Below, one piece after another: positions 56,492-59,636 of a stretch of 64,000 bases of DNA (the first letter of the stretch is position 1; the number at the start of each line of letters is the position of its first letter). Location: the NCBI GenBank assembly GCA_017399535.1, contig JAFQBX010000018.1, positions 124,001 through 188,000 on the forward strand. Direction: 5' to 3'. The translations under genes were made by a program, and so were the position numbers. Under the pieces are notes generated by a model, which did no database searches, was not told the DNA's origin, and worked only from the letters and a program-made list of their open reading frames with translations. The stretch comes from Clostridia bacterium (GTDB taxonomy: Bacteria; Bacillota; Clostridia; Oscillospirales; Acutalibacteraceae).

Positions 56492-57283
56492 CTATTTCAT
56501 TAGCTCCCACATTAAAATCGCGGCTGCCGAAGCGGCATTAAAAGATTCCGCACGTCCGGTTATCGGTATTGTAACTCGTCTGTCACAAATTTCTTTTGCT
56601 CTCGGCGAAAGACCGTTACCCTCGTTACCGATAATGACTACGTCACCGTTTTTGAACCCGATTTCGTCCAATTTTTCGGCATCCTTATCCACAACCGAGG
56701 CAAAAAGTGTAATACCTTTGCTTTGCGATAATTCGTGCAGTGAATCAATATCGTCAAAATGAAACAGATCCAATCGAAGCATTGAACCCATTGAAACACG
56801 TTGTGCCTTTGGTCCAAACGGGTCGCAACAATTACCGATTAGAATCATTCCGCTTACACCTAGTGCTTCGGCTGTGCGCGAAATTGCACCCAAATTTGAC
56901 GGGTCGGATACATTTTCACAAGCAATATATCGTCCATCCGACAAAATGCTATCACGTGCCGATTCGATATCGGGCATAACGCAAACGGCGATTACTCCCT
57001 GAGGAGAAACGGTATCCGATATTTTTGTGAAAACGTCATTCGTCACCAAATACGCTTCGTCGGCTTTTTCAGTCAGGAGTGAAACGCTTTCGTCATAATG
57101 CTCATTTGCTGATTCGGTAAAAAACAATGTCTTAATTTCGATGCCGCTATTGGCTGCATCGGTGCAAAGACGTACACCTTCGAGGACAAAAAGACCGCTT
57201 TGTTTACGATGCTTTGACGATGATAAAAGCTTTACGGTTTCTTTGATTTTTTTATTATCTTTTGCTGTAATTTTAGTAATCAA
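56492..57283 (-). CDS. TrmH/SpoU family RNA 2'-O-ribose methyltransferase
   Basis: The 263 residues have an N-terminal substrate-binding domain (KETVKLLSSSKHRKQSGLFVLEG), then the SPOUT knot: CENVSDPSNLGAISRTAEAL (motif 1), NEGNGLSPRAKEICD (motif 2), VTIPITGRAESFNAASAAAI (motif 3). The target could be 23S rRNA or tRNA; it is not the compact TrmL type. The start is TTG with GGGAGGGG nine bases upstream. It is the first gene of the long run down to leuS. A promoter was not clearly identified. Confidence 0.92.
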   Translation of the reverse strand: MITKITAKDNKKIKETVKLLSSSKHRKQSGLFVLEGVRLCTDAANSGIEIKTLFFTESANEHYDESVSLLTEKADEAYLVTNDVFTKISDTVSPQGVIAVCVMPDIESARDSILSDGRYIACENVSDPSNLGAISRTAEALGVSGMILIGNCCDPFGPKAQRVSMGSMLRLDLFHFDDIDSLHELSQSKGITLFASVVDKDAEKLDEIGFKNGDVVIIGNEGNGLSPRAKEICDRRVTIPITGRAESFNAASAAAILMWELMK

Positions 57284-57995: not shown

Positions 57996-58517
57996 TTATT
58001 TCTCGACAGACTTTGGCGACAGGAACATAAGCATATTTCTGCCGTCAAGCTTGGCGGGTTTTTCGACGTTACCATACTCCGAGCAGTATTCAGCAAAACG
58101 GGTCATATTGGCTAAACCAATATTCTGATGCCCCATTTCTCTACCGCGGAAGCGAATTGAAACCTTTATCTTGTTTCCTGATTTGAGGAATTTGATAGCT
58201 TGGTTACCCTTTGTTTCAAAATCGTGTGTGTCGATATTAAGCGAAAGTCGAATTTCCTTAATTTCGATCACGTGCTGATTTTTCTTTGCTTCCTTGTCTC
58301 TCTTTGCTTGTTCAAAGCGATATTTTCCGTAGTTCATAATCTTGCATACAGGGGGTGTTGCCTGGGGGGCAATCTTGACAAGGTCAAGGTCCTGTTCGTT
58401 TGCAAGTTTTTGAGCTTCTTTGGCACTCATGATGCCAAGCTGTGAGCCGTCATTACCGATGACTCTTACCTCTTTGTCAATGATTTGCTCATTGATTGCA
58501 AGTTCTTTACTGCTAAT
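57996..58517 (-). CDS. infC: translation initiation factor IF-3, AUU start
   Basis: IF-3 checks start-codon pairing and prevents premature subunit joining. The 173 residues begin ISSKELAINEQIIDKEVRVI (first residue initiated as Met) and show the two domains with LVKIAPQATPPVCKIMNYGK, RFEQAKRDKEAKKN and FRGREMGHQNIG. No ATG, GTG or TTG lies at the family start; GGAGGTG is followed eleven bases later by ATT at 58515-58517, matching the rare AUU start used for infC autoregulation elsewhere. The frame is open further upstream but crosses the leader hairpin. Confidence 0.95.
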   Translation of the reverse strand: MSSKELAINEQIIDKEVRVIGNDGSQLGIMSAKEAQKLANEQDLDLVKIAPQATPPVCKIMNYGKYRFEQAKRDKEAKKNQHVIEIKEIRLSLNIDTHDFETKGNQAIKFLKSGNKIKVSIRFRGREMGHQNIGLANMTRFAEYCSEYGNVEKPAKLDGRNMLMFLSPKSVEK

Positions 58518-58678
58518 GGGATATAGCACCTCCAAATAAAAATAAGCACGAACAAAGCTAATCTGTTCGTGCTCAATAAGCATAATATTGGCAATAATAT
58601 TGCCTCAAAAAACACTATTGACCCGAACGGACGATACCGCAAAGGTGAGAACAGATTAAACCATTCTGCTTTGTTGAC
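58518..58678 (-). ncRNA. infC leader with terminator/antiterminator alternatives
   Basis: A leader of about 160 bases contains a hairpin GCACGAAC/GTTCGTGC (58572-58565 with 58553-58546), followed by TTATTTTTATTT, which looks like an intrinsic terminator. TAATCTGTTC at 58658-58649 is perfectly complementary over ten bases to GAACAGATTA at 58568-58559, which includes four of the eight bases of the terminator's 5' arm and its loop, so the two pairings exclude each other. A further hairpin GGCAAT/ATTGCC sits between. L20-type leader control by attenuation is known in Bacillus; assigning this leader to that class is inference. Confidence 0.7.
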
Positions 58679-58684
58679 CTACTA

Positions 58685-58713
58685 ATTGTATATCACCCAA
58701 ATCGTTTTGTCAA
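58685..58713 (-). promoter_or_regulatory. sigma-A promoter of infC-rpmI-rplT
   Basis: A perfect TTGACA (58708-58713), 17 bases and TACAAT (58685-58690). The -35 hexamer overlaps the last codons of the upstream VanY-like gene, whose stop codon ends at 58710. Confidence 0.85.
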
Positions 58714-59636
58714 CTGTTTTTTTGCAAATATTCAACATATTCTTCGAGGCACATATTAAGCTGATTCATTTTCCTTGCGTGGTCCTTACCTACGTAGCGG
58801 TAATGCCACGGCTCGTAAATAACGCCGGTGTATTGCTCTTTATCCTTTGCGTAACGCATTACAAAACCGTATTCCTCGGCATGTTCCTTTAACCAAACAA
58901 GCTCGGGCTTGTTTTCGTATCGCTGTTCAAGATAGTTAAAGTCAACCGCCAATCCGAGATTATGATCACTCGTTCCCGGAATCGCAACTATTGTACTCGC
59001 CTTATTTTCTGCACCTTTTTGCGAATATCCTTGTTTGAGATAATAATTCACCTTATTTTTGTAAAGCGACTGCTGCTTTTCATACGAGCGGTATGCCGAA
59101 ACTGAAATCAGCTTGACGCCGTCCTCTTTTGCTGCTTCGATCATAGCAATAAGGTCGTCATATACCCTCTCGTCAATTTGATAATTATCATTATTCTGAC
59201 AATGCTGTGAGCCGATATATTTTGTCGGAGGTGTATAATCGTTTATTACGTTAAGCCGGTTTGCAAGTTTAAGACGCCAATCGCTCGACTGACCGACAAA
59301 ATTGTAAACAGAATAGCCGTCAATAACCTCAACCGATTCGGGTTTTGACGAAGTGGCACTTTCAGTTTTTGACGATGATGAATCAACAACAATCGATGTG
59401 TTATCTGACGCTGACGATCCATCTGCCGCTGACGAATTATCAATCACCGCTTCTGACGAGCTGTCGACGAGGAGGGTTTGCGATTCCTTGTATTCCGAAC
59501 GTGTCACAGCAATAGCGCAAATTAAGAGAATAATCATAATAACAAGCGCAATACAGGTAACGACAAAATACGGCTTTTTATTAACCGAGTATTGCTGATT
59601 ATATCTGCGGTCAATTTGATGATTATATCTTGACAT
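58710..59636 (-). CDS. VanY-like D,D-/L,D-carboxypeptidase (M15B), membrane anchored
   Basis: The 308-residue protein has a cytoplasmic start, one membrane helix (FVVTCIALVIMIILLICAIAV), a serine- and aspartate-rich linker (about 52-105), and a C-terminal M15B zinc peptidase domain. The zinc and catalytic residues are visible in ISVSAYRSYEKQQSLY, SDHNLGLAVDF (His and Asp) and EPWHYRYVG (Glu and His). It trims peptidoglycan stem peptides. There is no vanR-vanS or ligase gene near, so this is housekeeping wall metabolism, not vancomycin resistance. It is the third gene of lon-engB-vanY. Confidence 0.92.
   Translation of the reverse strand: MSRYNHQIDRRYNQQYSVNKKPYFVVTCIALVIMIILLICAIAVTRSEYKESQTLLVDSSSEAVIDNSSAADGSSASDNTSIVVDSSSSKTESATSSKPESVEVIDGYSVYNFVGQSSDWRLKLANRLNVINDYTPPTKYIGSQHCQNNDNYQIDERVYDDLIAMIEAAKEDGVKLISVSAYRSYEKQQSLYKNKVNYYLKQGYSQKGAENKASTIVAIPGTSDHNLGLAVDFNYLEQRYENKPELVWLKEHAEEYGFVMRYAKDKEQYTGVIYEPWHYRYVGKDHARKMNQLNMCLEEYVEYLQKNS

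Follow-up and report, generated by a model that had tools for sequence, protein, structure and literature searches.

The window analyzed here, a stretch of 64,000 nucleotides from a Clostridia bacterium genome, carries on its minus strand a promoter, a leader of ~145 nt, an intrinsic terminator, a GGAGGTG motif and the genes infC, rpmI and rplT, in that order. The genes encode IF-3 (57996–58517; TIGR00168, E = 3e-66), L35 (57762–57959; TIGR00001) and L20 (57359–57718; TIGR01032), the last being the presumed regulator. The promoter (58685–58713) is of the sigma-70 type, with TTGACA at 58713–58708, a 17-nt spacer and TACAAT at 58690–58685; it matches the consensus at 11 of 12 positions and is the top-scoring candidate within 2.7 kb. 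Similar boxes, judged by eye, lie upstream of the aptamer in relatives. A preliminary description of this locus had listed the promoter, a 10-base complementarity, the terminator, GGAGGTG and an ATT start, and we found each of them where it had been placed, on the minus strand. The gene upstream (58710–59636, minus strand) encodes a VanY/LdcB-like D,D- or L,D-carboxypeptidase, with weak family scores that fall under the resistance-specific cut-offs, and its 3′ end overlaps the −35 region of the infC promoter. Immediately 3′ of rplT, an RlmB/TrmH-like RNA methyltransferase gene (56492–57283, minus strand; listed start TTG) possibly belongs to the same operon.

The leader begins with a putative L20-binding aptamer (58616–58675) composed of AACAAAGCAG, hairpin H1, TCACC, helix H2 and GGGTCAATA, as delimited by covariance-model matches and covariation. 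The loop and 3′ arm of H1, TAATCTGTTC (58649–58658), find an exact 10-base complement in GAACAGATTA (58559–58568), which forms the 5′ arm and loop of the terminator; the two would constitute the 5′ and 3′ segments of an antiterminator that competes with H1. The terminator hairpin (58543–58575; 14-bp stem, 5-nt loop) is followed by TTTTTATTT, with its U-tract at 58534–58542, and then by the infC Shine-Dalgarno sequence GGAGGTG (58527–58533), which is kept in relatives. The layout of mutually exclusive folds proposed earlier was supported, and the pairing proved even longer than had been noted: AACAAAGC (58668–58675), the conserved 5′ strand of the aptamer, can also pair with GCTTTGTT (58551–58558), which belongs to the terminator loop and 3′ arm and directly adjoins the 10-base complement there, for a total of ~18 bp. 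This extension was seen only in the window's genus. When the upstream leader was dinucleotide-shuffled 2000 times, five of the shuffles paired with the terminator 5′ arm in a perfect run of at least 10 bases. The leader as a whole folds better than its shuffles (z = −3.8).

The infC gene starts with ATT (58517–58515), a codon of the class that IF-3 discriminates against. It had been called the only sensible start, and the sole in-frame extension initiated by ATG (58583) was rejected: it lacks a Shine-Dalgarno sequence and crosses the terminator, and in the congener L004 it does not share the infC reading frame. At the homologous place in 122 relatives, the start was AUU in 72, AUC in 32 and AUA in 17 (121 of 122, the last one being left unassigned by the script), mostly 8–9 nt after GGAGG, making a non-AUG infC start nearly universal in this group. 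Autocontrol by IF-3 at the AUU start of infC is established for E. coli; the relatives likewise carry AUU, AUC or AUA, here known from sequence, and by analogy the infC studied here may be under the same control. The infC gene of B. subtilis also starts at ATT (PMC6097659).

Relation to the RF00558 family

Scanning the whole window with Rfam at the gathering thresholds returned only a tRNA. Under permissive settings, the L20_leader model RF00558, a search proposed in the preliminary description, matched 58534–58677 over the full model length (42.1 bits, E = 6.1e-7). This score lies below the gathering threshold of 58.7 bits, which is a curation cut-off and not a functional feature, and it was the top match in the genome, the runner-up reaching 30.5 bits. 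The permissive scan also returned MicC, IR_84 and Tombus_5, which were under their own cut-offs and were taken as chance. In the same family, 120 genomes were sampled: 90 had some RF00558 match at E ≤ 0.01 and none exceeded the cut-off, whereas 45 of 149 genomes taken from the phylum at large did. The family thus carries a version of the leader that the curated model under-scores, and annotation pipelines miss it because no match in the group is reported above the cut-off.

We collected infC leaders from about 120 relatives and built our own covariance model on an alignment of 64 of them, excluding the window's genus. This held-out model matched 58616–58675 at 58.1 bits, with no further match in the window or the genome. 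It also found 65 of 74 leaders of named relatives, including Neglectibacter timonensis (L209) and many ruminant-gut Clostridia and Oscillospiraceae assemblies; the window's near relatives originate from cattle and goat colon. The aptamer pattern AACAAAG-nAG-H1-UCACC-H2-GGUCAAUA could be parsed in 116 of 122 relatives' leaders, with a few mis-parsed (e.g., L018 and L025), and doubtful parses were dropped from the tests. From the 64-leader alignment, in which the window's genus is absent, RNAalifold recovered H1 and H2 unaided. In these helices, 94.7% of cells were paired and double changes occurred in 79 cells, compared with 20.2 in shuffles, a signal that collapsed when the partner was slid by one column. 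Both aptamer helices therefore covary.

The infC-rpmI-rplT leader of Bacillus subtilis was reportedly the subject of Choonee et al. in 2007. In this leader L20 exerts control by binding, which promotes formation of a terminator (PMC6097659; PMC10931766). The leader studied here shares with RF00558 and the B. subtilis leader its operon and its position directly upstream of infC-rpmI-rplT, the aptamer order H1-TCACC-H2, a terminator immediately ahead of the infC ribosome-binding site and the ATT start. As in RF00558, H1 is followed by U/C-CACC and then by a helix closing with GGU, the intrinsic terminator lies between aptamer and infC, and a fold alternative to, and mutually exclusive with, the terminator is present; the use of the H1 3′ arm against the terminator 5′ arm as the alternative fold is shared with the above-threshold members. 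Unlike these leaders, the present one has a variable H1 that begins with AACAAAGCAGAA and whose loop lacks the CCAUCCGC consensus, an H2 that ends in GGGUCAAUA, a longer linker and a score under the Rfam cut-off, and in the window's genus AACAAAGC lengthens the antiterminator. L20 control of rpmI-rplT in E. coli has the regulator and the mimicry of the 23S rRNA site in common with it, but is translational, lies inside the operon, acts via a pseudoknot and excludes infC (PMC10931766). Judged by its sequence, the infC leader is a divergent but well-conserved gut-Clostridia form of the known L20 leader attenuator class. L20-controlled attenuation would thereby also operate in a large set of gut Clostridia that yield no match above the cut-off of the curated Rfam model, and the present alignment would allow RF00558 to be widened.

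Pairing partners of the terminator 5′ arm

We compared the competing pairing across canonical leaders and relatives. All 29 parsed canonical L20 leaders scoring above the threshold had the same topology, in which the H1 loop and 3′ arm (typically CCAUCCGCUU) face the terminator 5′ arm (GCGGAUGG), and within these 29 their own partners fitted better than swapped ones (z = −4.3). In the window, UAAUCUGUUC and GAACAGAUUA are the counterparts of these two segments, in the same position. When partners of the terminator 5′ arm were swapped among 108 relatives, own partners again won, with z = −9.2 for H1 and −3.4 for H2; these values are upper bounds, since species were treated as independent without correction for shared ancestry. 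A control using the terminator 3′ arm with H1, without GC matching, also deviated (z = −5.3), and we therefore ran a GC-matched swap. The gain from the own aptamer was then −2.0 ± 0.28 kcal/mol for the terminator 5′ arm vs. −0.27 ± 0.21 kcal/mol for the 3′ arm. Shuffled-partner controls at single sites were weak on average.

The strongest partner of the terminator 5′ arm was H1 in 55 of the 108 relatives and H2 in 46, and the pairing was weak in seven. The antiterminator might accordingly use mainly H2 (UCGUCCGUUCGGGU) and not the H1 arm named in the preliminary description, a reading favored by those 46 relatives and by the congener L003, in which two of the ten antiterminator pairs are broken and the H2 pairing outweighs that of H1 (−9.0 vs. 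−3.0 kcal/mol). In the window itself, however, H1 pairs at −11.1 kcal/mol vs. −9.0 kcal/mol for an interrupted H2 pairing, and canonical leaders use H1, so that we consider H2 an unlikely main partner. The congener L004 retains an eight-pair H1 pairing despite sequence change. Family-wide, pairing of CUUUG in terminator tails with ACAAAG was counted in 11 of 105 leaders against 7.5 expected, which leaves a general role unsupported and confines this pairing to the window's genus.

In the infC leaders of two relatives, L135 and L080, the terminator 5′ arm forms an unbroken helix of 12 and 15 bases, respectively, with H2 and not H1, which suggests that the antiterminator partner has moved. The alignment illustrates how the competing arm can change while the aptamer stays fixed. 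As a tentative and rather doubtful proposal, the partner may shift between the H1 arm and H2 among lineages of the order, with the window's genus using a two-part helix that also recruits the aptamer's conserved AACAAAGC strand; L20 binding would then block both halves together.

Proposed control by L20

We folded the leader along the growing transcript. The antiterminator reached a probability of 0.50–0.56 while the 3′ end lay at 58555–58549, and the terminator reached 0.92 from 58546 on. In the antiterminator state, H1 was opened and H2 was kept. For the full-length leader without L20, the terminator state was favored (−44.1 vs. −40.9 kcal/mol), implying that a switch must be kinetic, with L20 holding H1.

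We estimate a probability of roughly 93% that the leader is an L20-controlled transcription attenuator with mutually exclusive folds, joined to a non-AUG infC start for control by IF-3. RNA polymerase would first make the aptamer (H1 and H2), a mimic of the L20 site of 23S rRNA. With little free L20 present, the loop and 3′ arm of H1 (UAAUCUGUUC), aided in this genus by AACAAAGC, would capture the terminator 5′ arm (GAACAGAUUA, GCUUUGUU) as it emerges; this antiterminator pairing would delay the terminator, and the operon would be read. Free L20 in excess would bind and hold the aptamer, making H1 unavailable, so that the terminator can fold and end transcription near 58540. An early stop when free L20 is plentiful is thus the most likely outcome by analogy; we infer L20 binding, the direction of regulation and termination itself from the B. 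subtilis system and from family membership. The non-AUG infC start would add a second, translational control exerted by IF-3.

The terminator could instead be constitutive, merely lowering expression, with the competing pairing incidental. Its advantage at equilibrium and the partly broken 10-bp pairing of L003 would fit such an arrangement, but the competing pairing matches its own terminator more closely than swapped terminators, recurs in all parsed canonical leaders and seldom arises by chance, which makes an incidental pairing very improbable. The preliminary description had left the choice of switch between L20 and ribosome passage. L20 stands, on the RF00558 match, the covariation and the co-fit of the antiterminator, with binding itself presumed from the family. 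Attenuation by a ribosome whose translation of a leader peptide picks between the two folds would account for the terminator and the competing pairing, but we dismiss it as scarcely credible, since a search of the leader found no open reading frame that combines a plausible ribosome-binding site with a stop codon ahead of the terminator, and what is conserved is an RNA fold of the L20-leader type.

Upstream of infC, one family member, L025 (G009), has no recognizable L20 aptamer but retains the ATT start and a hairpin with its U-tract, an apparent loss or displacement of L20 control.
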